Origin: Acidobacteriota bacterium
Lineage (GTDB): Bacteria; Acidobacteriota; UBA6911; RPQK01; JAJDTT01
Length of the DNA stretch: 40,672 nucleotides
NCBI GenBank assembly: GCA_028874215.1
Contig: JAPPLF010000079.1
Span: forward strand, 1 to 40,672
Direction of reading: 5' to 3'
Shown here: piece by piece, positions 1 to 11,561 of the stretch
Position numbering within the stretch: position 1 is the first letter of the stretch
How the letters are laid out: each line of letters starts with the position of its first letter
The notes under the pieces: model-generated
Told to the model about the DNA's origin: nothing
Databases searched by the model: none
What the model saw: only the letters and a program-made list of their open reading frames with translations
Position numbers and translations under genes: made by a program

Positions 1-211
1 AAAGAAATAACTTAGATGAGATCTCTCATCCAACACGGTAAACTTGGGCTAGAGTTGGACCCCGCGCCGCTCTCCGTTTCCCAGGCCTGTAGTGTACTCT
101 GAGAACACTTGCATAATTAAATCAATAGCTTACAGTTCGAGACCGTCGAAGTCAGGAAAGCAGTTTGCGTGCTGGAGGGGGGGTGGAGATGTCGGGCTGG
201 AACCTCACCGC

Positions 212-1525
212 CTACGCCACGGGCAACACTAGCACGGCTCTGCAGCCCGGCGCCTGCCTTCGGTTGGTCAGGCTGAGGAAGCCGCCGTGGGCTTCGGCGA
301 TCTGCCGAGCCAGGACCAAGCCGATGCCGCTCCCCTGGGGCTTGGTGGTGAAGAAGGGGACGAACAGGTTGGCGGTGTCGGCCAGTCCCTTTCCCTCGTC
401 CTCCACGGAGACTTCCAACTGGTCGCCGATCCGTCTCCAGCCGACGCTGGCTCCCCCGCCGGTTTCCGTCGCGGCGTCGACTGCGTTCCGAACCAGGTTG
501 ATCAGCAACTGCTCCAATTGATCCGGGTCGGCCCGAAACCGGACCGGCTGGCCGTCTCGAATCGCCACCGGCATCCGGGTCTCCAGGCTCACCACCTTGC
601 GAACCGAGTCTTCGATGGAGACTGGGCGCTTGTCCGGGGCCGGTAGCCGGGCGAGCCGGGAATAGGCGCCCATGAACCGGCTCAGCGCCTGGGCCCGGGA
701 GGAGATGACGCCGAGACCCTCCCTCAGGTCCTGTTCCCGGTCCGTATTCGAGCGGTCCTGCTCCAAGAGGGATTCGAGACTGCCGGCGATGGACTTGATG
801 GGGGTCAACGAGTTGTTCAATTCATGTCCCAAAACCCGGATCAGCCGGCGCCAGGCCTGCCGCTCCTCCTCTCGGAGCGTCTGGTTCAAATCCGTCAGGA
901 CCACCAGGTGATGGGGCCGACCCTCCTCGCGAAACACGATCCGGTGCATTCCCCAGCGGCCGCTCCCCCCGGGCAATTGGATTTGGAGCGTCTGGACCGG
1001 CTCACCTTTCAAGCAGTCCTTCAGATCCAGCTCTGCCGCCGACTTGCCCAACGCTTGCTTTTCCGGAATTCCTAGGAGCCTCTGCCCGGCCCGGTTGATG
1101 AGGCGCACGCGCCATCCGTCATTGAACGCGAAGACCGCAACGTCGATCTCCTTCATCACCTTCTGCAGCAGGGCGGCCGCCTCGACCGCTCCCAGGCGTT
1201 GCCGCCGTAGGACCTCGCCCAGAATGTTCAGTTCCGCGGCGAACTCGCCCAGCCCCTTGTCGGTTCCACTCCGGGCCCGGATGGAGAAGTCCCCCTCTCG
1301 AATCGCCGAAACCACGTTGGCAAGTGTCTGAAACTGAAACGTCAACTTCCGGTACAGCAGGATCAGGCCGCCCGCCAGGGCTCCCACGGCCAGCAGCGAG
1401 AGGCCGTAGCGCACTGGGGGATCGTGATCGCCGGTCCAGAGCAGGACCAGCAGTGCGGCGCAGGAGGGGAGGCCGGCGGCAAGAGAGATCAAGACGATCC
1501 GCGCCTGAAAGCCGAGTCGGTTCAT
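212..1525 (-). CDS. NtrY-like sensor histidine kinase
   Basis: Membrane sensor kinase, predicted to phosphorylate the NtrC-type regulator encoded just upstream. The protein is 437 residues. Two hydrophobic segments lie in the first 65 residues. A HAMP-like stretch (VVSAIREGDFSIRA) and a PAS-like region (IDVAVFAFNDGWRVRLIN) follow. The kinase core is complete: H-box LGHELNNSLTPI, N-box NLVRNAVDA, G1 DEGKGL and G2 GSGIGLVLA. The open frame extends to 1789, but the ATG at 1525 is chosen because it overlaps the regulator's TGA in an ATGA junction, and because the extension would lie inside the regulator gene. This is the last gene of the efflux operon transcribed from near 7448. The periplasmic loop is very short, so the signal may come from the membrane, the cytoplasm or the transporter itself; that is inference. 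Confidence 0.9.
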   Translation of the reverse strand: MNRLGFQARIVLISLAAGLPSCAALLVLLWTGDHDPPVRYGLSLLAVGALAGGLILLYRKLTFQFQTLANVVSAIREGDFSIRARSGTDKGLGEFAAELNILGEVLRRQRLGAVEAAALLQKVMKEIDVAVFAFNDGWRVRLINRAGQRLLGIPEKQALGKSAAELDLKDCLKGEPVQTLQIQLPGGSGRWGMHRIVFREEGRPHHLVVLTDLNQTLREEERQAWRRLIRVLGHELNNSLTPIKSIAGSLESLLEQDRSNTDREQDLREGLGVISSRAQALSRFMGAYSRLARLPAPDKRPVSIEDSVRKVVSLETRMPVAIRDGQPVRFRADPDQLEQLLINLVRNAVDAATETGGGASVGWRRIGDQLEVSVEDEGKGLADTANLFVPFFTTKPQGSGIGLVLARQIAEAHGGFLSLTNRRQAPGCRAVLVLPVA

Positions 1526-2892
1526 AGCCCGAGTTTTTCTATGCGCCGGTAGAGGGCGGTTCGGCTCAGCCCCAAACTTCGAGCGGCGTGGCTCACGTTG
1601 CCGCCGGCGCGGGACAGTGCCTTGCCGATCAGGACGCCTTCGGCTTCCTCCAGGGTCATCATCTCCAGCGGATTCGAATAGGGCGAGTCCGCCGGCAGGC
1701 TCAGATCCTCGACCGAAATGGAGGACTCCCGGGCCAGCAGGACGGAGCGCTCCACCACGTGGCTGAGCTCCCGGACGTTTCCCGGCCACGAGTAGTGAGC
1801 CAGGGCGGCCAGTGCCGGTTCGCTGAATCCGTCCAGCCGCTTTCGGTACTTCTGGTTGTAGCGGCCCAGAAAGTAGTTGGCCAACAGGAGGACGTCCTCA
1901 CCCCGGTCCCGAAGCGGCGGCAGGCGGATCTCCACCGTGTTGAGACGAAACAGGAGGTCCTCCCGAAACCGGCCGCGGTCCACCTCCCGCTTCAGGTCGG
2001 CGTTGGTGGCCGACAGCACCCGCACGTCGACGTGCTTGGTGCGGGAGGAGCCGACACGCTGCATCTCTCCGCTCTCCAGGACGCGGAGGAGGTTGGCCTG
2101 TTGGCTTACGGGAATGCTGGTGACCTCGTCCAAAAGCAGCGTTCCTCCGTCGGCCAGTTCGAAGCGTCCGATCCGGTCTGTGCGGGCGTCGGTAAAGGCA
2201 CCCTTGACGTGGCCGAACATCTCGCTGACGAAGACACCTTCAGAGAGACCTCCCAGATTGACGGCTACTAGAGGCATTGAGGCGCGAGCGGAGACCGAAT
2301 GCAGAGTTCGGGCCACCACTTCCTTGCCGGTGCCGTGGTCGCCGGTGATCAGCACCTGGGCGTCGGAAGGTCCTACCCGGGCGATCAGATCGAGGACAGG
2401 CCGCATGACCGGCGACTGTGTGATAAGACGAACGTGTTGTCGAGAGCGGAGGACCCGGTTCTCTTCCTCTAGACGGCGGCCTTGCCGTAGCGCCTGCCGA
2501 AGCTCGATCTGGCTCTTCAAGACCGTGAGGAGTCGTTCGTTTTCCCAGGGTTTCTGAATGAAGTCCCGGGCACCGCGCCGAATGGCTTCCACAGCCAGGT
2601 CAATTGTGCCCCACGCAGTCATGACCACCACGCGTAGCGATCCGTCCACCGCCAGCAACTTTGTCAGAAGATCGAGTCCCTCCCGGCCCGAAGTCGTGTC
2701 CCGGGCGTAATTCATGTCCATCAGGACGATGTCGACGTCGAGACGCCGCGCGCACTCCAGGACGCGCGCGGGAGTGTCGGCGGTAGTGATCTCGTAATCC
2801 TCGCTCTTCAGCAGGAGCCGGAGGGAATGAATCACGTCGGCCTGATCATCGGCGATCAAGACACTGGGTCTCTTGGAACGGGTTCCGACCAT
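1522..2892 (-). CDS. NtrC-family sigma-54-dependent response regulator
   Basis: Activator of sigma-54 promoters, 456 residues. The N-terminal receiver domain has acidic residues D15/D16 and phospho-acceptor D59 (VLMDMNY). The AAA+ domain has Walker A GDHGTGKE and Walker B TLLLDEV. The sigma-54 contact loop reads GAFTDA rather than the usual GAFTGA. The C-terminal Fis-type helix-turn-helix is NVSHAARSLGLSRTALYRRIEKLGL, which ends the protein. The gene lies 27 bp after the permease and overlaps the kinase by an ATGA. Paired palindromes and perfect sigma-54 promoters stand before the adaptor and TolC genes of the same locus, so this protein very probably controls both and is autoregulated as part of the adaptor operon. 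The regulator type is clear from sequence; the target assignment is inference from context. Confidence 0.95.
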   Translation of the reverse strand: MVGTRSKRPSVLIADDQADVIHSLRLLLKSEDYEITTADTPARVLECARRLDVDIVLMDMNYARDTTSGREGLDLLTKLLAVDGSLRVVVMTAWGTIDLAVEAIRRGARDFIQKPWENERLLTVLKSQIELRQALRQGRRLEEENRVLRSRQHVRLITQSPVMRPVLDLIARVGPSDAQVLITGDHGTGKEVVARTLHSVSARASMPLVAVNLGGLSEGVFVSEMFGHVKGAFTDARTDRIGRFELADGGTLLLDEVTSIPVSQQANLLRVLESGEMQRVGSSRTKHVDVRVLSATNADLKREVDRGRFREDLLFRLNTVEIRLPPLRDRGEDVLLLANYFLGRYNQKYRKRLDGFSEPALAALAHYSWPGNVRELSHVVERSVLLARESSISVEDLSLPADSPYSNPLEMMTLEEAEGVLIGKALSRAGGNVSHAARSLGLSRTALYRRIEKLGL

Positions 2893-2919: not shown

Positions 2920-5430
2920 TTATTCATGACGCAGCGCTTCCATGGGTTCCAGCCGGGTGATTCGGAAGGCAGGGACCCAGCATGCCAGCAGGGAGGCAGC
3001 CAGAATTACTAGTGTGGCGACGACGAACGTCACCGGATCGCCCAAGTCAAATCCGGGAAGAAAAACACCCATCAGTTGACCCAAACTCAATGCCAAGCCA
3101 ATGCCGATGGAGAGACCGATGGCCACTGTCACCAGGGTTTGTCTTAGGATCAGCCAAACCGTGTGGTCCCGCCTTGCCCCCAGGGCTAACCGAACCGCGA
3201 TCTCATGGGTCCGTCGAATGACCGAGCGCGAGAGCACTCCGTACAGGCCAACCGAGGCCAGGGTGAGGGCCAAAACCCCGAACGCGCCCAACAGTAAGTT
3301 CAAGAACAGCCATGGGGCAACGCTTTCCGCAATCGCCGCTGACAAGGATGTTGCGCCGAAGGTCGGCAGATCGTTGTCCATTTCCTGCACTGCCCGGCGC
3401 ATCGTCGCAACCATGGCGGAAGTCGGTTGTTGCGGAGATCGAGCCATGAGAGTGAAAGTGCCCTGATACCGCTGGAGCAACGAAAAGTACACATGTGGAT
3501 TTTGGGCGGCGCCGAGCTGGCGCCCCCGGACCTCTCGAGCGACGCCGACCACCTCCCAGCTATCTGATTCGGAATAGATCCGTTTTCCGATTGGATCGGC
3601 ATCGGGCCAGAATTGTTCGGCCACCGGCTGACTGATGATGGCGATTTGCCTGGAGTCTTGATCGTCTGTCCAGCGAAAATCGCGGCCCCTTATCAGGGGG
3701 ATACGGACTGTTTCGAAGTATCCGGGGCCGACGGAATTGACTTCGACCTGAATCCGTTCCTCATCGTTCTTGTGGATGGAAGTGCTGAAATAGCGGTCGT
3801 CGGCAGGAGTGAATCGCGCCAGAGTCGCGGATTCCACTCCCGGTGCCGTCTCGATCCGTCGCAGAAGTTGTCGCAGAAACAGGGCTCCTCGAGTTTCGTC
3901 GTACCCTTGGGTGGCAACGTCAACGGAAAGTGTGCCCACGTTCTCTGGATCGAAACCCGGATCCAGAGCGAGTCGATGGTCGAGCGTATGGATGGAGAGT
4001 CCGGCCGCCACCAACAACGTAAAGGACAAGGTCACCTGAAGGATGACCAGAAGGTTCCGCCAGCGAACCGACCGGCCGCCACGGGCCGCCCCTGTGGCTT
4101 TGAGTTCCGAGAACAGGTCGATTCGGCTGGATTGTGCTGCTGGAGCGAGGCCAAAGATCATGGCTGTCGACAATGAGAGGAGCAGGGTGAACAACAGCGT
4201 GCGATTGTCCAGTGCCAGTCCGAAGTTCAGAAGATCCGGCCGAATGAGATGGCTGGGGAGCGAGAGTAAGCTCGTCATTGCCATAAAACAGGGTGCTACC
4301 AGAACAGCGGCAGCGCCTCCGGCCAGAAAGAGCATGGTGGTCTCGGTGAGGAGGTAGCGCACCAAGCTACTCCGGTTGGCGCCTGCGGCCAACCGAATGG
4401 CCATTTCATTCCTTCTTCCCATGGCACGGGAGAGGAGGAGATTGGCGACGTTAGTGCAAGCGATGAAGAGCACAGAGCCCATGATCGCAATAAGGATGAT
4501 CCCCGAGATCCGGATTTGGGACCGCGCGTCGTCGCCCCTCGTTCCCCAGTGTCCTTGGGCCAAGCGCAGGACTCGATCCTTCCACCCGGGATCTTCAAGT
4601 TCCAATTGAGAGACTACGGCAGCCAAACTGGATTGAGCGCTTTCCAAATTGAGATCGGGGTTGAGTCGTCCGATCATTCTCAACCAAGCGTAGTCGGCAT
4701 CGTCGAGACGATTCGGGGGCAGCACTTGGGGCTGCATCATCGTAGGCACCCACACGTCTGGCTCCCCTAAGATCCCTTTGAATTCGGCGGGCATGACTCC
4801 CACCAGAGTGAGTGGATGACCGTTCACTCGTACAGTTTTTCCAACAATATCTCGACTCCCTTGAAACCGATCTCGCCAGAGGCGATCACTGATCATGGCC
4901 ACCGGATTGCGCCCGGGGACTTGTCCCTCCTCCGGTAGAAACCCCCTGCCGATGCCCGGTTCTATCCCGAGGACATGCGTATAGTTGGACGAAACCAATC
5001 CACCCCAAAGCCTCTCCGTAAATCCATCGGCACTCAGGTGGACCGTGAACCCGCTGTGGGCAATCAGCCCGGAGAAGACCTCGTTGGATTCCTGGATCGT
5101 GCGAAATGCGGCGTGCGAAAAGAACTGGTTGTCGCGATTTGGCCGTCCTTTCGTGAATGAACCGAAGCTTACGATCTGATGGGGATTCAAGACAGGTAAC
5201 GGACGAAAAAAGGCATTATCGACCAGCGTGAAGACCCCCGTGTTCACTCCGATTCCCAGGGCCAAGGTCAAAATCACGACGATTGTGAATCCGGGATTCC
5301 TAGTCAACGTTCGAAATGAGAGCCTGAGGTCCCGAACGATGTCCTCCAGTAAGAGAACGAAACGTCGTCGTGATTCGTTTCCTTGCAAAACGTGATCCTT
5401 GGGTGAGGTCGGTTGCGGTTCTCCACTCAT
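2920..5430 (-). CDS. long FtsX/MacB-type ABC transporter permease (ADOP-like)
   Basis: Inner-membrane permease of 836 residues. The N-terminal cytoplasmic stretch leads into LRLSFRTLTRNPGFTIVV and the first membrane helix (ILTLALGIGVNTGVFTL), then a large periplasmic MacB_PCD-like domain. A set of three helices near the middle (from IILIAIMGSVLFIACTNVANLL) is followed by a second helix, periplasmic domain and three-helix unit ending in EPMEALRHE. This duplicated FtsX layout is about twice the length of MacB-type permeases that have one FtsX unit, and matches the duplicated permeases abundant in Acidobacteria. The frame opens with a GTG at 5451, but the ATG at 5430 has GGGAG about 9 nt before it. 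Unlike orphan members, it sits 33 bp behind a matching ATPase gene. Substrate unknown. Confidence 0.93.
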   Translation of the reverse strand: MSGEPQPTSPKDHVLQGNESRRRFVLLLEDIVRDLRLSFRTLTRNPGFTIVVILTLALGIGVNTGVFTLVDNAFFRPLPVLNPHQIVSFGSFTKGRPNRDNQFFSHAAFRTIQESNEVFSGLIAHSGFTVHLSADGFTERLWGGLVSSNYTHVLGIEPGIGRGFLPEEGQVPGRNPVAMISDRLWRDRFQGSRDIVGKTVRVNGHPLTLVGVMPAEFKGILGEPDVWVPTMMQPQVLPPNRLDDADYAWLRMIGRLNPDLNLESAQSSLAAVVSQLELEDPGWKDRVLRLAQGHWGTRGDDARSQIRISGIILIAIMGSVLFIACTNVANLLLSRAMGRRNEMAIRLAAGANRSSLVRYLLTETTMLFLAGGAAAVLVAPCFMAMTSLLSLPSHLIRPDLLNFGLALDNRTLLFTLLLSLSTAMIFGLAPAAQSSRIDLFSELKATGAARGGRSVRWRNLLVILQVTLSFTLLVAAGLSIHTLDHRLALDPGFDPENVGTLSVDVATQGYDETRGALFLRQLLRRIETAPGVESATLARFTPADDRYFSTSIHKNDEERIQVEVNSVGPGYFETVRIPLIRGRDFRWTDDQDSRQIAIISQPVAEQFWPDADPIGKRIYSESDSWEVVGVAREVRGRQLGAAQNPHVYFSLLQRYQGTFTLMARSPQQPTSAMVATMRRAVQEMDNDLPTFGATSLSAAIAESVAPWLFLNLLLGAFGVLALTLASVGLYGVLSRSVIRRTHEIAVRLALGARRDHTVWLILRQTLVTVAIGLSIGIGLALSLGQLMGVFLPGFDLGDPVTFVVATLVILAASLLACWVPAFRITRLEPMEALRHE

Positions 5431-5463
5431 GGCTTGGTCTCCCAGATCCACAGAATCATGTTT

Positions 5464-6162
5464 CTACGCCGCCTCGTCCTCGTCGACGATCTGCCCGTCG
5501 AAAAGGTGCACCGTCCGCTCGGTGTGTTCGGCATAGCGGGGATCGTGCGTGACGATGCAGATGGTCGATCCTTCCTGGTGCAGCTCTCCCAGAAGTTCCA
5601 TGACGGCTCCGCCGTTCCTGGAATCCAGGTTCCCGGTGGGTTCGTCCGCCAAGAGAATCGCCGGTCGTCCCACCAACGCCCGCGCCACCGCCACGCGCTG
5701 TTGTTGACCGCCCGAGAGCTGAGTGGGGTAGTGGTTCATCCGGTGGGACATGCCAACCCGCTCCAGGGACTCCTCCACGCGCCTCCGCCTCTCGGCCCGT
5801 TTCAGATTGCGGTAGGTCAGCGGCAACTCCACGTTCTCGAAGACCCGGAGATCGCCGATGAGGTTGAAGTTCTGGAAGATGAATCCGATCTCCCGGTTTC
5901 GCAGGTGGGTCCTCTGGGCGAAGGTGAGGTCCGCAACCGGGTGGCCGTGGAGGTAGTATTCCCCGGCTGTGGGAGCGTCCAACAGTCCCATGATGGAGAG
6001 CAGAGTCGACTTGCCGCAGCCCGAAGGGCCGCCAACGGAGACGTACTCCCCCTGCCTCACTCCCAGGTGAACCCCGGACAGGGCATGGGTCTCTACCTCC
6101 TCCGTCAGGAAGATCTTAGTGATCCCGTTCATCCGTATCAGCCATTCCGTGTTTCCATCCAT
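5464..6162 (-). CDS. MacB/LolD-type ABC transporter ATP-binding protein
   Basis: ATPase of 232 residues that should energise the adjacent long permease. All ABC motifs are intact: Walker A GPSGCGKST, Q-loop IFQNFNL, signature LSGGQQQRVAVARAL, Walker B ILLADEPTGNLD and H-loop IVTHD. The family is that of tripartite MacAB-TolC exporters and LolD-like transporters, which use ATP to drive periplasmic movement rather than transport across the inner membrane. The ATG is preceded by AAGGAG with good spacing. It lies 30 bp after the adaptor gene and before the permease, the usual order for such operons. Confidence 0.95.
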   Translation of the reverse strand: MDGNTEWLIRMNGITKIFLTEEVETHALSGVHLGVRQGEYVSVGGPSGCGKSTLLSIMGLLDAPTAGEYYLHGHPVADLTFAQRTHLRNREIGFIFQNFNLIGDLRVFENVELPLTYRNLKRAERRRRVEESLERVGMSHRMNHYPTQLSGGQQQRVAVARALVGRPAILLADEPTGNLDSRNGGAVMELLGELHQEGSTICIVTHDPRYAEHTERTVHLFDGQIVDEDEAA

Positions 6163-6192: not shown

Positions 6193-7446
6193 TTACTCCA
6201 ACCGGATCCGGTCATGGTCCTTCCACTGGGCCATGTCGGAGAGCACCACCTGATCCCCAACGTTCAGGCCCTCCAGAATTTGAATCTCGCTGACAGAGCT
6301 GGCCCCCAGACCGACGCGGATCCGCTGGGCATGAATCCCGTCCGCTTCCATCCGAAACAGGCTGGCCGAGCCGTCCTCCTGGCTGAAGCCGGGCCGCGGC
6401 ATGTAGACGACATCGGCTAGATGCTCCAGCTCCACGGTTCCATCCACGCTGAGGTCCGGACGCGCCCCCCGGGGCAGCTCTCCCGCGAGCGCCACGTCCA
6501 CAGTTACCAGCCCTTCCTTCACTGCAGGGTCGATCCGCGAAACTCGTCCCGGGACGACGCCGTTGCGGGTGTCGATCTCCGCCTTTTGACCCACCTCCAG
6601 ATCCCGTGCCTGGGTCGCCGCGACCTCGATCTCCGCCTTGAGCCGGCTGGGTTCGGCGATCCGGACCAGGTTCGTACCCGGGGTGACCTGCTGGCCGACT
6701 TCCACCTCCACCTGTTGAAGCACGCCGGAGATTCCGGGCCGCACTCGCAAAGACTCCAGTTGGCTCCTCCGCAGTGAGTGGAGCAGACGCCGCTGCTCGA
6801 CCTCGGCCCGCTTGGCCTCCAGTTGGGCCTCCAGAGATTTGGAGAAGATGTCCGTCCTTCTCTTTTCAAGCAGACGTTGAGTCTCAAGGGCCTCGGCTTT
6901 GCTTCGGCTGATCTTTGTATCCATCTCCGAGACCAGGCCCTCGCGAAGCAGAGCGGCGTCCGCCTCCGCCTTGAGGGTTGCCTCCAGATAATCTGACTCG
7001 ACGCTGGCGGCGTCGGCTTGGCGTTGCATCTTCTCGCTTTCGAGCTGGATCCGGAGATGGGCCATCTCCGCTTCGGCTCGTTTCAACTGGCTCTCCGCAT
7101 CCAGAGCCTGCTGCTCCAGCTCGGGATTGCTCAATTCCAGGAGAACCGTCTGGGGAGTGACCCGTCCGCCCGGTTGAATCAGGACCCGCTCGACGCGGCC
7201 CTCGGTGGCGGCGGGAATCCAGCGGATGATCTCGGGGATCAGCTTGCCCAGGCCGCGAACGCGGCGGGTGAGTTCGCCCCGCTTGACCTCCCCCATCCAG
7301 AGGGTGGATCGGTCGACACGGGGAGCGGCCGGCTCCAGGCGGGAAAGGCCCGCGCTGATGGCGGCAATGGAGACGATCACCGACAGCAGGTAAAGAGTGT
7401 GTCTGATTTTGCGTCGGCGGGCGGCGAAGGGTCTTTGGATGTCCAT
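6193..7446 (-). CDS. HlyD/MacA-like periplasmic adaptor (membrane fusion protein)
   Basis: Adaptor of 417 residues that should bridge the inner-membrane ABC permease and the TolC-like channel. It has a positively charged N-terminus (MDIQRPFAARRRKIRH), one membrane anchor (about residues 18-35), a first lipoyl half (AATEGRVERVLIQPGGRV), and a long coiled-coil hairpin rich in Gln, Glu, Arg and Ala (about 105-235). The second lipoyl half is RPGISGVLQQVEVEVGQQV. Beta-barrel and membrane-proximal domains follow (AEIEVAATQARDLEVGQ and VGLGASSVSEIQILEGL). A MDIxRP start is typical of a family of such adaptors, which supports this ATG. A GAGGAG lies 8 nt before the ATG, but it falls between the sigma-54 -12 element and the predicted transcription start, so it would be missing from the sigma-54 transcript. 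First gene of the five-gene operon. Confidence 0.93.
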   Translation of the reverse strand: MDIQRPFAARRRKIRHTLYLLSVIVSIAAISAGLSRLEPAAPRVDRSTLWMGEVKRGELTRRVRGLGKLIPEIIRWIPAATEGRVERVLIQPGGRVTPQTVLLELSNPELEQQALDAESQLKRAEAEMAHLRIQLESEKMQRQADAASVESDYLEATLKAEADAALLREGLVSEMDTKISRSKAEALETQRLLEKRRTDIFSKSLEAQLEAKRAEVEQRRLLHSLRRSQLESLRVRPGISGVLQQVEVEVGQQVTPGTNLVRIAEPSRLKAEIEVAATQARDLEVGQKAEIDTRNGVVPGRVSRIDPAVKEGLVTVDVALAGELPRGARPDLSVDGTVELEHLADVVYMPRPGFSQEDGSASLFRMEADGIHAQRIRVGLGASSVSEIQILEGLNVGDQVVLSDMAQWKDHDRIRLE

Positions 7447-7459
7447 GCTGTATCTCCTC

Positions 7460-7474
7460 GCAATCAGTGTGCCA
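7460..7474 (-). promoter_or_regulatory. sigma-54 promoter of the adaptor operon
   Basis: On the minus strand this reads TGGCAC-ACTGA-TTGC, a perfect match to the -24/-12 consensus (TGGCAC-N5-TTGC). With -12 at 7460 the transcript should start near 7448, only about 2 nt before the ATG at 7446. Paired palindromes 83-117 bp upstream provide enhancer sites. Confidence 0.85.
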
Positions 7475-7500
7475 AGTTTAGGGAAAGAGTCAAATGTATG

Positions 7501-7513
7501 TAATTAAATGATT
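7501..7513 (-). promoter_or_regulatory. possible IHF-type DNA-bending site
   Basis: The minus strand reads AATCATTTAATTA, one mismatch from the IHF consensus WATCAR-N4-TTR. It lies in a notably AT-rich stretch (7490-7530) between the sigma-54 promoter and the activator palindromes, where a bend is commonly needed. Whether this organism uses IHF here is unknown. Confidence 0.3.
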
Positions 7514-7547
7514 TATATGAAAGCGGATATTTGAGCCCGAGATCCGG

Positions 7548-7589
7548 AGTGTCCGGTTCCGGGATCAAGTGTCCGGTATCGGACACTTG
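7548..7589. promoter_or_regulatory. tandem palindromic activator sites upstream of the adaptor operon
   Basis: Two sites share the core TGTCCG-N4-CGGACA. The distal (from the promoter) site at 7566-7589 is a perfect palindrome with 10-base arms (CAAGTGTCCG and its complement) around GTAT. The promoter-proximal site (core 7550-7565) keeps TGTCCG and CGG but degenerates at the other end. Centres are 20 bp apart (7557.5 and 7577.5), about two helical turns, as expected for cooperative NtrC-type dimers. Confidence 0.8.
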
Positions 7590-7703
7590 GACGTTGAAGG
7601 AGAAAAGGACATCGAGTACGTAGAAAAAATACAGATCAGTACGGTTCGGATGCCTTAGGACCGGCGGGATGTAGTGCTGCTCAACCACCGGAGAGCCTCC
7701 CGT

Positions 7704-9440
7704 CTAATCACGGCGGGCCAGCACGATGTCGTTGCTGTCGACAATGGTGTACATGGCCATTTCCAAGTCGGTCACGGCCTGCTGATAGTCCAGCCGCGCC
7801 CTCAGTTCCTGCACCTGCGACTGGCTCAGGTCCCGCTGATACCGGAGCACCTCGAAGTTGGTGGACAATCCGGCCTGGAAACGTTTGTTCTCGCCCTCCA
7901 ACTGGGCTTCGGAGAGATGTCGAGCAACACGGGCCGCTTCCAGCCGCTTCCTCTGGGTGGCGATGCTCTCGTAGGCATTGCGGACTTCCACGATGATCAT
8001 CTGCTGCTGGTTCTTGCGCTGGCTGGCGAGTTGGCGGTCCCGGATCAGCAGGCTGGCCCTCTCCGCCTCGTTGGCACGGTTTCTCAGGGGAATTTCCATG
8101 CTGACGCCGAGAGTGTAGTTGACGTAGTCGAACCCGAAGACTTGACCCCACGAATTTCCGAAGCCCCCGAAAAACGGATTCGACGGCTGGGGAACGTTCT
8201 GCAAACGGGTGTCGGGGACGCCGTCTCCGTCCGTATCCACGAACTCGCTTGCGAAGATCTCGCCGGCCCGTCCCGTATTGGTCAGGCCTACCACCAGGTC
8301 CACGGTAGGCCTGCCGTCCTGTTTGTAATACTCCCGGTCCACCTCCACCTGTTCCCGGAGCAGCCGGTTCTGTTCCAGCTCGGGACGCCTCTCCATGGCC
8401 CTGGCGATGGCCTCATCCAGGGTGATGGCCAGATCCTGGACTTGTGGAAGCTGAGTCGGGATCAGGGTCAGGTTCCAGATGGCCGCCGTCGGGTCCGGCG
8501 CCAGATGGCGCTTGAGTCCGTTCTGGGCGGTGATGATCCGGACTTCCGACTGGATCATCTCCTGCTCGCGCGTGGCCACCTCGGCCCGGGAGGCGGTGAT
8601 CTCGATGGACGCCATGACGCCGATCTGGACCCGTTTCCGGTTGTTCTCATGCTGGATGATGGCCAACTCCATGGACTTGCGAATGGCCTCGTAGCTCTGG
8701 ATGGCGAACACCAGCTCCCAGTACTGGTTCTGCACCTGCTGCACGATCTCCGACACCTTCTGTTGGAACTGGCTTTCGCTGATCTCCGTCTCCAGGTTGT
8801 AAAGCATGAGCTCGCGCCTGGTCTGGGTCTTGCGGAATCCCCTCCAAAGCGGCTGGCGCAACGAGACGGCGAAGTTGGAACCGAAGGAGGGGTTCATGAA
8901 GGAGAAGGCGCTGTTAGTGCTGAAACGGTTGTTGTTGAAGTTCAAGGTGAGGCTGCTTCCGTTGGGCAGATTCTGCACCAGCGACGTGTCGAAGTAGATG
9001 AGGCCCGTGGTGTTCACCGGGATTCCCTGACCGGCGTCCAGGATGGACCGGGCCGGGTTTTCGGTGGCCGTCCAGCCCATCTCGACCCGCAGCCGGGGAT
9101 CGTAGAAACCCTTGCTTCTGAAGATATTCTGGCGGTTCAGATCCTCGTTGTAGTCCTCGATGGCGATCTCCAGGTTGTTGGTCAGCGCCAGACGGATGGC
9201 GTCCTTGACGCTCAACTCCCGCACCTGCCTCTCCCGGCGCATCCGGTCCGCCCACGACTCGGGCCGATCGATCGCTGGCATTTCTGACTGGGCCTGATCA
9301 ATGGCCGTTTTCTCTAGAGGACCAGCTCGCAAGAATGGCACGGTCAACACGAGAAAAATCGGAAGGACGATCCCCGCAAGCGGATCGTAGGTGCATTTGA
9401 TTCCGCGTCGGTGAACGGCGAACGGACTTGGGATGTTCAT
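7704..9440 (-). CDS. TolC-family outer-membrane efflux channel
   Basis: Outer-membrane channel of 578 residues, expected to complete the tripartite exporter. It begins with a basic stretch and a hydrophobic export segment (GIVLPIFLVLTVPFLRAG). Two TolC-type halves follow, each with a conserved entry (LSVKDAIRLALTNNLEIAIEDYN; ITLDEAIARAMERRPELEQNR) and long helical coiled coils. An unusual loop carries DTDGDGVPDT, which resembles a calcium-binding DxDxDG repeat. The frame opens at a TTG (9449), but that codon precedes the predicted sigma-54 transcription start; the ATG at 9440 is preferred. The first 14 residues (MNIPSPFAVHRRGI) resemble those of the adaptor (MDIQRPFAARRRKI), with about three quarters of bases identical over the first 48 nt. 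No clear ribosome-binding site is seen. Confidence 0.92.
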   Translation of the reverse strand: MNIPSPFAVHRRGIKCTYDPLAGIVLPIFLVLTVPFLRAGPLEKTAIDQAQSEMPAIDRPESWADRMRRERQVRELSVKDAIRLALTNNLEIAIEDYNEDLNRQNIFRSKGFYDPRLRVEMGWTATENPARSILDAGQGIPVNTTGLIYFDTSLVQNLPNGSSLTLNFNNNRFSTNSAFSFMNPSFGSNFAVSLRQPLWRGFRKTQTRRELMLYNLETEISESQFQQKVSEIVQQVQNQYWELVFAIQSYEAIRKSMELAIIQHENNRKRVQIGVMASIEITASRAEVATREQEMIQSEVRIITAQNGLKRHLAPDPTAAIWNLTLIPTQLPQVQDLAITLDEAIARAMERRPELEQNRLLREQVEVDREYYKQDGRPTVDLVVGLTNTGRAGEIFASEFVDTDGDGVPDTRLQNVPQPSNPFFGGFGNSWGQVFGFDYVNYTLGVSMEIPLRNRANEAERASLLIRDRQLASQRKNQQQMIIVEVRNAYESIATQRKRLEAARVARHLSEAQLEGENKRFQAGLSTNFEVLRYQRDLSQSQVQELRARLDYQQAVTDLEMAMYTIVDSNDIVLARRD

Positions 9441-9453
9441 GCGGAACAACCCA

Positions 9454-9468
9454 GCAATCGGAGTGCCA
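9454..9468 (-). promoter_or_regulatory. sigma-54 promoter of the TolC-like gene
   Basis: The minus strand reads TGGCAC-TCCGA-TTGC, a perfect -24/-12 match. The predicted start of transcription is near 9442, about 2 nt before the ATG at 9440, exactly as at the adaptor gene. Confidence 0.85.
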
Positions 9469-9544
9469 AGGTGGGACGAGATCTATATCTCGCTATAAGT
9501 CAAGAGGTTACGGAACACCAGTACGACCGGTCACAGTATTCAGC

Positions 9545-9584
9545 TGTCCGTTTCCGGGACAAAGTGTCCGCTACCGGACACTTT
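9545..9584. promoter_or_regulatory. tandem palindromic activator sites upstream of the TolC-like gene
   Basis: The site at 9561-9584 is a perfect palindrome with 10-base arms (AAAGTGTCCG and its complement) around CTAC. The second site (core 9545-9560) reads TGTCCG-TTTC-CGGGAC. Centres are 20 bp apart, and the perfect site is 118 bp from the -12 element versus 117 bp at the adaptor operon. The perfect palindrome overlaps the last codons and stop of the upstream glycosidase-like gene. Confidence 0.8.
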
Positions 9585-11157
9585 TCCGGGGATCCGCCAC
9601 CTGGAACGACCAGATGGTCGCGTCCCGGAACAGGAACCGCAGGCGGACGGCCTTGCCCCTGAGGGAGGCCAGCGACCGGCCCTGCCATGTCACCCGGTGG
9701 GCCAGCTCGTCCCCCCGGATCACGTCGCAGTCCTCGCGCCGGAAGCCTTCCAGCTTCTGCTCGGCGGCGCCGATGTAGTGGCTCATGTGGACCTTCTTCC
9801 CGGTGTCGAACTGCCTCCCCGTGGGGTCCACCAGTTCGACACGCAGTTCCCCGCCGATGTCGGCGTTGACGAGCAGCTCGTCCCCCTCCACCACGATGGG
9901 CCGGGTCAGAAAGGCCCCCTTGCCCTCCAGAACCTCCCGGTTGCGGAGACCCATGAGCCGGTCCCTCGGCACCGAACCCAACCCGATCCGGATCTGGCGC
10001 CGGTCCAGGGGAACGTTCTTGGAACCATGGTTGTAGCGGGCGCCGGCGTAGTAGAAGAGCATCTTCTCCCCGTGCACGATCATGGAGGGCCACCAGATGA
10101 TCCGGTCGTCCCAGCTCCCCTCTTCCCCTTGGGGAATGAATGCCTCCTTGGGAAAGGGATGGTCCCAGCGATACCCGTCCCGGCTGACGATCAGGTGCTG
10201 CTCCACGTCTCCCCTCACGTAGTTGTCCAGCATGGAGGGGAGCCCCAGGTAGACTCCTTGGTAGCGGATCACCTGCATGCTCTCCACTTCGGGCCAACGT
10301 TCGCTCATGGGATGGAACACCGTCTGCCGCGGAGACCATTTCACCAGGTCCGGACTCTCCTGGCGGACGATGTAGCGGGGACCGGTGCCGGTCTCGGGAT
10401 CCGCCTTCTCCGTCAGTTGCCGATGAAACAGCACGTATTTCTCCAGGTTCTCGTCCCAGACGATGCTGGGATTCCCGCCCCCGCCTCCGCCTCGAAGGCC
10501 GCCGGGCATCTGGTGCCAGGTGAGGCCGTCGGCGCTGTAGGCCATCCCGTTCCAGCCTCCGAATTTGCCCCCGTCCCGGTGGTAGGGAGGAACCCCGCAG
10601 GTGAGGAACCGGCGTTCCGGCGGCCGTTCTCTCGGGTCCTGGATCAGCCGGATGGCGCCGGCAAGGGGACGGTTCCCCAGGTGGTCCGAGTGGCGCAGGA
10701 CGTTGTTGCGCATGGTTCCCTGGTAGCGGACCAGTCCCAGGTCCGGCTTCACCCAGGTCACGCCGTCCTCGCTCTCGGCGTAGGCGGCCACGTTGCCGCC
10801 GGTATGCTGCTCGATCTGGTACCAGATCTTGAACTTCCGGTCCCGGGGATCGTAGATGGCGGTGCCGAGCTGGATTCCCCAGCTCTTCCGGGCCGTCTCC
10901 TCCCAGGGGGCATCCGCCTCCATCAGTGGGTTCGCGGGATGTTTCCGGAGCACGGCCTGAACCCGCTTCACGTTGTACCAGGCGGCGAGCACGTGGTTGT
11001 CCACCAGAAGCTGCTTCCGGTTGCCGATCTGCAGCGGGGGTTCCGATTCCAATGGCCCCAAGTGGACATGGGGAGATCCGGAGTCCTGCCGGGCAGCCGT
11101 ATTCGACGTCGCCAGGAGCGCAAACGCCGTCACCAGGGCGAGAGTTTTCAGTTTCAT
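9571..11157 (-). CDS. secreted glycoside-hydrolase-like five-bladed propeller protein
   Basis: Predicted secreted protein of 528 residues. A signal peptide (MKLKTLALVTAFALLATSNTAA) is followed by propeller-like repeats typical of clan GH-J/GH43-like folds: GTAIYDPRDRKFKIWYQ, YAESEDGVTWVKPDLGL, YSADGLTWHQMPGG, PSIVWDENLEKYVLFHR and VSRDGYRWDHPFPKEAF. Similar proteins are common in bacteria that degrade plant or marine glycans. I cannot name the substrate or confirm catalytic acids. The frame runs on to 11310, but that extension would overlap the next gene and the signal peptide marks the ATG at 11157. The C-terminal KSVR and stop are encoded within the activator palindrome of the TolC-like gene. 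Confidence 0.75.
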   Translation of the reverse strand: MKLKTLALVTAFALLATSNTAARQDSGSPHVHLGPLESEPPLQIGNRKQLLVDNHVLAAWYNVKRVQAVLRKHPANPLMEADAPWEETARKSWGIQLGTAIYDPRDRKFKIWYQIEQHTGGNVAAYAESEDGVTWVKPDLGLVRYQGTMRNNVLRHSDHLGNRPLAGAIRLIQDPRERPPERRFLTCGVPPYHRDGGKFGGWNGMAYSADGLTWHQMPGGLRGGGGGGNPSIVWDENLEKYVLFHRQLTEKADPETGTGPRYIVRQESPDLVKWSPRQTVFHPMSERWPEVESMQVIRYQGVYLGLPSMLDNYVRGDVEQHLIVSRDGYRWDHPFPKEAFIPQGEEGSWDDRIIWWPSMIVHGEKMLFYYAGARYNHGSKNVPLDRRQIRIGLGSVPRDRLMGLRNREVLEGKGAFLTRPIVVEGDELLVNADIGGELRVELVDPTGRQFDTGKKVHMSHYIGAAEQKLEGFRREDCDVIRGDELAHRVTWQGRSLASLRGKAVRLRFLFRDATIWSFQVADPRKSVR

Positions 11158-11210
11158 GTTGAAGGCAGGCCTTTCCGGTCGGAATGGGGTTCGCCGGATC
11201 GGGAAGACGG

Positions 11211-11561
11211 TCAAATGTCGTAAACGGTCACGTTCCCTTTGATGTCCACCCTGACGAACTCCTTGGATTCCTTGTGGAATGAGATATCGAGCATCCAGAT
11301 GATGGCCCACAGGCCGATGGTGAAAAAACTGAGCATGAGATGAAGGATGTGGTTCACCGGGGTGCCGTCGGCGACAATGGCCTGATAGTCGCCCTGGAAG
11401 ACAATCCTCTTGCCCTCTTCCTGCATAACGGCCAACTGTTGCGACAAAAGGCGTCTTCGTTCGGCAGGTTTCAGATTCTCATTCCTGCTCACTCTGAATC
11501 TCCTTGCGGCCAGGATCGTTTTCGGTTGCCGGCGAAGCCACCCACGGAGATCTGACGTCAT
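11211..11561 (-). CDS. small membrane protein of unknown function
   Basis: Not recognised. The 116-residue form starting MTSDLRGWLRR has a basic N-terminal half, a middle segment KRIVFQGDYQAIVADG, and one hydrophobic helix (LMLSFFTIGLWAIIWMLDI) followed by a short strand-rich tail (FVRVDIKGNVTVYDI). The frame stays open to an ATG at 11639, but that codon overlaps the start codon of the divergent ABC-2 permease (CATG), so the ATG at 11561 is preferred. A later start is possible. It lies 53 bp before the glycosidase-like gene and may share its transcript. Confidence 0.55.
   Translation of the reverse strand: MTSDLRGWLRRQPKTILAARRFRVSRNENLKPAERRRLLSQQLAVMQEEGKRIVFQGDYQAIVADGTPVNHILHLMLSFFTIGLWAIIWMLDISFHKESKEFVRVDIKGNVTVYDI

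Follow-up and report, generated by a model that had tools for sequence, protein, structure and literature searches.

We analyzed a 40,672-bp window, the contig JAPPLF010000079.1 of an Acidobacteriota bacterium (assembly GCA_028874215.1), which carries on its minus strand an efflux operon with two similar regulatory units, one in front of the gene for a periplasmic adaptor and one in front of a tolC gene for an outer membrane channel. Each unit consists of paired palindromes, a sigma-54 (−24/−12) promoter, a start codon, and first codons that match between the two genes. Probably, the palindrome pairs are upstream activating sequences (UAS) of the NtrC-type regulator encoded in this operon, and each pair drives a sigma-54 promoter; the adaptor unit is probably the ancestral one, which was copied and fused in frame to a duplicated tolC.

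Anatomy of the two units

The two units are made up of the following features:

9565..9580, minus strand: tolC unit, upstream site 1, perfect palindrome AAAGTGTCCG-GTAG-CGGACACTTT
9545..9560, minus strand: tolC unit, site 2, GTCCCGGAAACGGACA, canonical phylum-wide form
9454..9468, minus strand: tolC sigma-54 promoter (−24/−12), TGGCACTCCGATTGC
9381..9440, minus strand: start codon and codons 1–20 of the operon tolC, adaptor-derived, MNIPSPFAVHRRGIKCTYDP
7570..7585, minus strand: adaptor unit, upstream site 1, perfect palindrome CAAGTGTCCG-ATAC-CGGACACTTG
7550..7565, minus strand: adaptor unit, site 2, ATCCCGGAACCGGACA
7460..7474, minus strand: adaptor sigma-54 promoter, TGGCACACTGATTGC

Both units contain a perfect TGTCCG-N4-CGGACA palindrome with 10-base arms (CAAGTGTCCG/CGGACACTTG at the adaptor and AAAGTGTCCG/CGGACACTTT at tolC), a degenerate partner site 20 bp from it, and a perfect TGGCAC-N5-TTGC promoter on the minus strand (7474–7460 and 9468–9454, respectively). 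The distance from the center of the perfect palindrome to the −12 element is 117.5 bp in the adaptor unit and 118.5 bp in the tolC unit; 13 bases separate TTGC from the ATG in both. After the ATG, 35 of 48 bases are identical between the two genes, and 35 of 45 over codons 1–15. The palindrome pairs, the perfect promoters, the equal spacing, and the similar first codons had all been claimed in a sequence-only reading of this DNA, and all of them were found at both genes.

The sites within a pair differ: the half-site spacing of site 2, GTCC-N7-GGAC, is the one found across the phylum, and site 1 of these units has N6. In the tolC unit, the upstream open reading frame (ORF; 9571–11310) ends with a stop codon in the center of the site 1 palindrome. 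A Shine–Dalgarno-like GGAG precedes the adaptor ATG.

The chimeric tolC gene

The genome of the window (G000) was compared with three other genomes of the same genus: G011, G013, and G012, a sister species. All four carry a tolC gene elsewhere (contigs C22 in G000, C64 in G011, C579 in G012, and C16 in G013), and these paralogues share 85–88% DNA identity with the operon tolC; the similarity begins no earlier than residue 21 of the operon protein. The paralogue starts with MKSVKGIFLPVF (MKSVKGIFLPV...) and lacks an adaptor-like stretch; the operon TolC starts with MNIPSPFAVHRRGIKCTYDP-LAGIVLPIF..., and its extra N-terminal stretch matches MDIQRPFAARRRKIRHTLYL of the adaptor at the DNA level. 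In five-codon blocks, the operon tolC shares 12, 11, 12, 6, and 12 of 15 bases with the adaptor gene over codons 1–25 and 1 to 5 beyond them, and 2, 5, 2, 3, and 9 of 15 with the paralogue over the same blocks and 9–12 beyond. The switch point therefore lies near codons 21–26, and both parents of the gene were identified: the adaptor for codons 1–20 and a C22-type tolC (G000 C22:34305-35978) from about codon 21.

The match between the coding starts of adaptor and tolC is significant in both G000 and G012 (codon-shuffle p < 0.0002), and the shuffles never reached the observed match. In a TolC protein tree, both operon copies group among the paralogues of the genus. By these alignments, the operon TolC is a chimera of an adaptor start and a duplicated tolC, and the n-region of its predicted signal peptide is derived from the cytoplasmic tail of the adaptor.

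Duplication and its direction within the genus

G012 and G013 retain both units, with unchanged spacing. The arrangement in G012 is that of G000, with the second unit before tolC, and in G013 the second unit precedes a gene for an ADOP/MacB permease in place of tolC. The sigma-54 promoters are conserved in both units of G012 and at the adaptor of G013, and the second unit of G013 has one mismatch; from the ATG of this unit, a 30-codon ORF starting MDIQR runs to a stop that overlaps a possible permease start (ATGATG). The operon was not present in G011, where neither the adaptor nor a close regulator was found.

The spacer between UAS and −24 element of the adaptor unit is homologous to that of the second unit of G013 (score of 8 against a shuffle mean of −9, p < 0.001). 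No similarity was detected 5' of the UAS between the adaptor and tolC units, and the second units of G000, G012, and G013 have a common upstream flank; unit 2 therefore sits at one ancestral place. The units are homologous over the palindromes, the promoter, and the coding start up to codon ~20–25; the homology ends where the gene becomes a tolC copy. The duplicated unit suggested earlier is thus supported more strongly than the sequence-only reading could do, and these comparisons indicate that the two units arose by segmental duplication.

As for its direction, adaptors throughout the order keep the MDIPR-type start, and in the genomes G001 and G002, from other families of the order, tolC lies downstream of the ATPase gene without such a unit; hence, the copying went from adaptor to tolC. 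The sister families have a single unit, before the adaptor only. Judging by the genomes searched, a second copy of the unit within one operon is specific to this genus.

Related units across the order and phylum

The adaptor genes of other families in the order have one unit each, with a degenerate pair in the same position (G001, and similarly G002 and G017). The pair of G001 reads TGTTCGCTTTTGGGAC, followed by GTGCCGGAGACGAACA 21 bp on. The general pattern is TGTYCG-N5-GGGAC at site 1 and RTCCC-N5-CGRACA at site 2, 20–22 bp on, with usually 72–76 bp (extremes 64–86 bp) between site 2 and the sigma-54 promoter. The degenerate pair with promoter recurs about 15 times upstream of the adaptor among 80 adaptor loci from the genome collection, and a reversed-sequence control gave 0 matches in 1.08 Mb. 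The absence of the palindromes from orthologous loci, which would have refuted the sequence-only reading, was not observed within the genus; in genomes outside it, this degenerate version stands in for the perfect palindrome at the same distance. The TTGC-to-ATG distance of 13–16 nt also occurs in some other families, the rest having 17–59 nt.

The palindrome with up to 3 mismatches is not enriched in the window (32 observed, 29.6 expected), and across the genome the two sigma-54 hexamers likewise stay at chance level (11 matches against 13 for the reversed pattern), so neither count proves anything taken singly. The 18-bp palindrome GTGTCCG-N4-CGGACAC is found only at these two places in the 5.7-Mb genome, where its 16-bp form has 7 occurrences. 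The composite of UAS and sigma-54 promoter is far above chance: in its strict form it gave 21 matches in 16 of the 396 genomes of the phylum, and the control gave 0. The search of relatives for the paired motif, proposed by the sequence-only reading, placed 17 of these 21 matches in front of efflux genes (7 adaptors, 5 permeases, 3 ABC ATPases, and 2 tolC, the latter in this species and G012); 4 were unclassified. In G065, G189, and G017 (L239, L242, and L243), the two matches are divided between the adaptor and a separate permease gene, as would be expected of the regulon of one activator; the separate permeases are candidate trans members.

The operon and its regulator

The genes of the operon, in minus-strand order, are as follows:

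7704..9440, minus strand: tolC, chimeric TolC-family outer membrane channel (Pfam OEP), copy of the C22 tolC from codon ~21
6193..7446, minus strand: periplasmic adaptor of the HlyD/RND_mfp type; mRNA start predicted from promoter geometry ~2 nt 5' of the ATG
5464..6162, minus strand: ABC transporter ATPase (MacB/LolD/DarD-like)
2920..5451, minus strand: ADOP-family duplicated permease (TIGR03434, above cut-off)
1522..2892, minus strand: NtrC-type response regulator with receiver (REC), AAA+ sigma-54 activator (GAFTDA), and Fis-type helix-turn-helix (HTH) domains, proposed activator of both units
212..1534 (start approximate), minus strand: PAS/HATPase sensor histidine kinase, proposed partner of the regulator

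The permease scored 800.9 with TIGR03434, above the cut-off of 622.3. Darobactin export proteins DarC and DarD were, below cut-off, among the NCBIfam relatives of the adaptor (6193–7446) and the ATPase (5464–6162); this kinship hints at peptide export. In G013 (L034 938-8600), three tandem ADOP permeases were encoded, ~56–58% identical to the single permease of the window. A second regulator/kinase copy, 90% identical, opens contig C66 of G000 (C66:1-3098; compare window positions 1–1534), with downstream synteny with G013. Because the window contig ends just past its own kinase gene and C66 starts with this copy, syntenic with G013, the two contigs probably abut, and the permease–regulator–kinase part is probably tandemly duplicated.

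The regulator of the operon contains REC, Sigma54_activat, and Fis HTH domains. Its sigma-54 contact loop is GAFTDA instead of GAFTGA, as in 23 of 27 orthologues; GAFTDA is among the variants reported to be compatible with sigma-54 activation (PMC4641369). The SRxALYRR recognition helix is conserved in the regulator family. Scores with the NCBIfam equivalogs for GlrR/QseF, ZraR, AtoC, and NtrC were all well below the cut-offs. RpoN is encoded in the genome (PF04552, E = 4.1e-57), and across the phylum the paired site and orthologous regulator/kinase/adaptor loci are found together. Given the phylum-wide composite, the regulon-like matches, the conserved GAFTDA and SRxALYRR motifs, and RpoN, the paired palindromes are best read as a putative enhancer of the operon regulator. 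Binding by this regulator, already proposed in the sequence-only reading, is likely in view of the co-occurrence, the conserved helix, and RpoN; the contact itself is what we infer.

Proposed mechanism

From the anatomy, duplication, chimera, and conservation read in the sequences, we suggest the following course of events, in which the adaptor unit would be ancestral and each UAS pair would drive one sigma-54 promoter. In an ancestor of the genus, a copy of the UAS pair, the −24/−12 promoter, the start codon, and ~20–25 adaptor codons would have been placed at the end of the gene upstream. In the line leading to this species and G012, the copied segment would have been joined in frame to a duplicated tolC, yielding the chimeric signal peptide, and in G013 the same segment would have come to precede the ADOP permease. 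The kinase would sense an envelope or drug signal and phosphorylate the regulator, which would bind both UAS pairs as an oligomer and loop to RNA polymerase–sigma-54; tolC and the adaptor–ATPase–permease–regulator–kinase genes would then be transcribed together. In this scheme, the chimeric tolC is probably activated along with the other genes of the pump, and the presence of the regulator and kinase genes in the operon would imply positive autoregulation.

With a start about 12 nt after the −12 element, the mRNAs are predicted to begin ~2 nt before the ATG and would thus be near-leaderless. In this case, the start and early codons would be part of the expression signal, and this would account for the extension of the duplicated piece into the coding region; the GGAG before the adaptor ATG would serve only read-through mRNA coming from tolC. 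A more general idea, which we regard as possible and rather doubtful, is that the unit is a portable near-leaderless sigma-54 cassette that captures genes either in frame (tolC) or via a coupled mini-ORF (the G013 permease) and so enlarges one enhancer-controlled efflux regulon; its start and first codons would move with the promoter since, with an mRNA beginning ~2 nt 5' of the ATG, they would form the translation start signal.

Alternative explanations

Several observations weigh against this scheme. The spacer of the tolC unit of G000 is not significantly similar to the adaptor spacer (p = 0.15; 0.02 in G012). Many adaptor loci of the collection lack a clear sigma-54 match to the pattern used. 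Palindrome pairs of the same family, without a sigma-54 promoter, occur elsewhere in G000, at the following places:

C7:131640-131675
C9:21783-21818
C43:5125-5160
C53:8465-8500
C70:55821-55856
C80:47085-47119

No convincing sigma-54 promoter was found within 260 bp of the other palindrome pairs of the genome. Two identical pairs are also present in G011, which has no operon, adaptor, or close regulator. Since pairs occur without a sigma-54 promoter, including those of G011, the pair at the operon genes may have another origin or another binder. Some of the dispersed pairs lie inside or directly 3' of genes, and the C53 pair is conserved in G012.

The weak similarity of the G000 spacers bears on an independent origin of the two units, which would be alike only through the constraints set by regulator, sigma-54, and start spacing; palindromes, −24/−12 elements, and spacing are indeed functional constraints. 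Such convergence, already disfavored, appears highly improbable: the first 15–20 codons of two unrelated proteins match (p < 0.0002), tolC switches to its paralogue right after them, and the second-unit spacer of G013 is clearly homologous to the adaptor spacer.

The dispersed pairs raise another explanation, in which the palindromes are a repeat family (REP/BIME-like or 3'-end hairpins) that lies upstream of the promoters by chance and does not serve as regulator sites. Similar pairs are found at a number of unrelated loci in the genomes of the genus, some just past stop codons; the tolC-side palindrome itself holds the stop codon of the upstream ORF, RNA folding gives strong hairpins (z of −3.2 to −8.2), and the two identical G011 copies persist without the operon. 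Such a repeat is nevertheless quite unlikely in view of its low copy number (2–5 strict pairs per genome) and the near-fixed, phylum-wide distance of the pair to the −24/−12 promoter of efflux genes, with zero control matches. An origin from RAYT/REP elements was rejected: RAYT-type transposase (Y1_Tnp) genes exist, but they are not flanked by such palindromes.

If the pairs are regulator sites, they could still be bound by a paralogous NtrC-type regulator encoded elsewhere in the genome. Genomes of the order have tens of candidate homologues of the regulator each, G000 has the 90% identical copy at C66, and the pairs of G011 persist without a close orthologue. We consider this unlikely, since in several families the unit is found together with the regulator and kinase of the operon and the recognition helix of this regulator is conserved together with the site. 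Control of both units by the regulator of the operon itself, after duplication of the adaptor unit, is the reading that we retain.

Comparison with known systems and significance

The units share with enhancer-dependent regulation of the NtrC type (NtrC-glnA, QseF/GlrR-glmY) the −24/−12 promoter, the paired sites ~100 bp upstream, and an AAA+ activator with a receiver domain, a Fis helix, and its own kinase. The site TGTC-N8-GACA resembles that of QseF/GlrR, TGTC-N10-GACA (PMC8745638), but the half-site spacing differs. Unlike in these systems, the target is an efflux operon, the regulator is below the equivalog cut-offs and has a GAFTDA loop, and the unit is duplicated within one operon. In a 2025 survey, sigma-54 control was predicted for FtsX-like exporters of antimicrobial peptides in Opitutia, Bacteroidia, and gamma-Proteobacteria (PMC12316311); its targets, FtsX/MacB permease and ATPase genes (COG0577, COG1136), are of the same kind as ours. 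The main text of that survey does not mention Acidobacteria, and no enhancer site, cognate regulator, or promoter duplication for these genes was found in it.

Regarding MacAB-TolC/ADOP efflux operons, the ADOP permease above the TIGR03434 cut-off, the MacB-like ATPase, the HlyD/RND_mfp adaptor, and the OEP channel are shared, while the predicted sigma-54 control and a chimeric TolC with a leader from the adaptor gene are not. As in promoter capture and chimeric gene birth by segmental duplication, a gene copy stands under a copied promoter with part of the donor coding sequence. Unlike in usual promoter capture, donor and recipient are partners of one pump; what was captured is a sigma-54 promoter of the enhancer-dependent kind, with a predicted near-leaderless start. 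The literature searched on Acidobacteria (ADOP permeases; sigma-54 with MacB) and on promoter capture yielded no direct precedent except PMC12316311. No description of the enhancer site, the regulon, or a sigma-54 promoter-plus-start unit captured by tolC was found in the literature searched, which left most subscription papers outside its range.

The operon thus offers a clean case of a regulatory module, comprising promoter, start codon, and leader codons, that was duplicated next to an operon and joined to a second gene, by which a copy of the outer membrane channel would join the control of its pump. For the very numerous and little-studied ADOP/MacB exporters of Acidobacteriota, it provides a concrete putative enhancer site and a candidate regulator, together with candidate members of the regulon beyond the operon itself.

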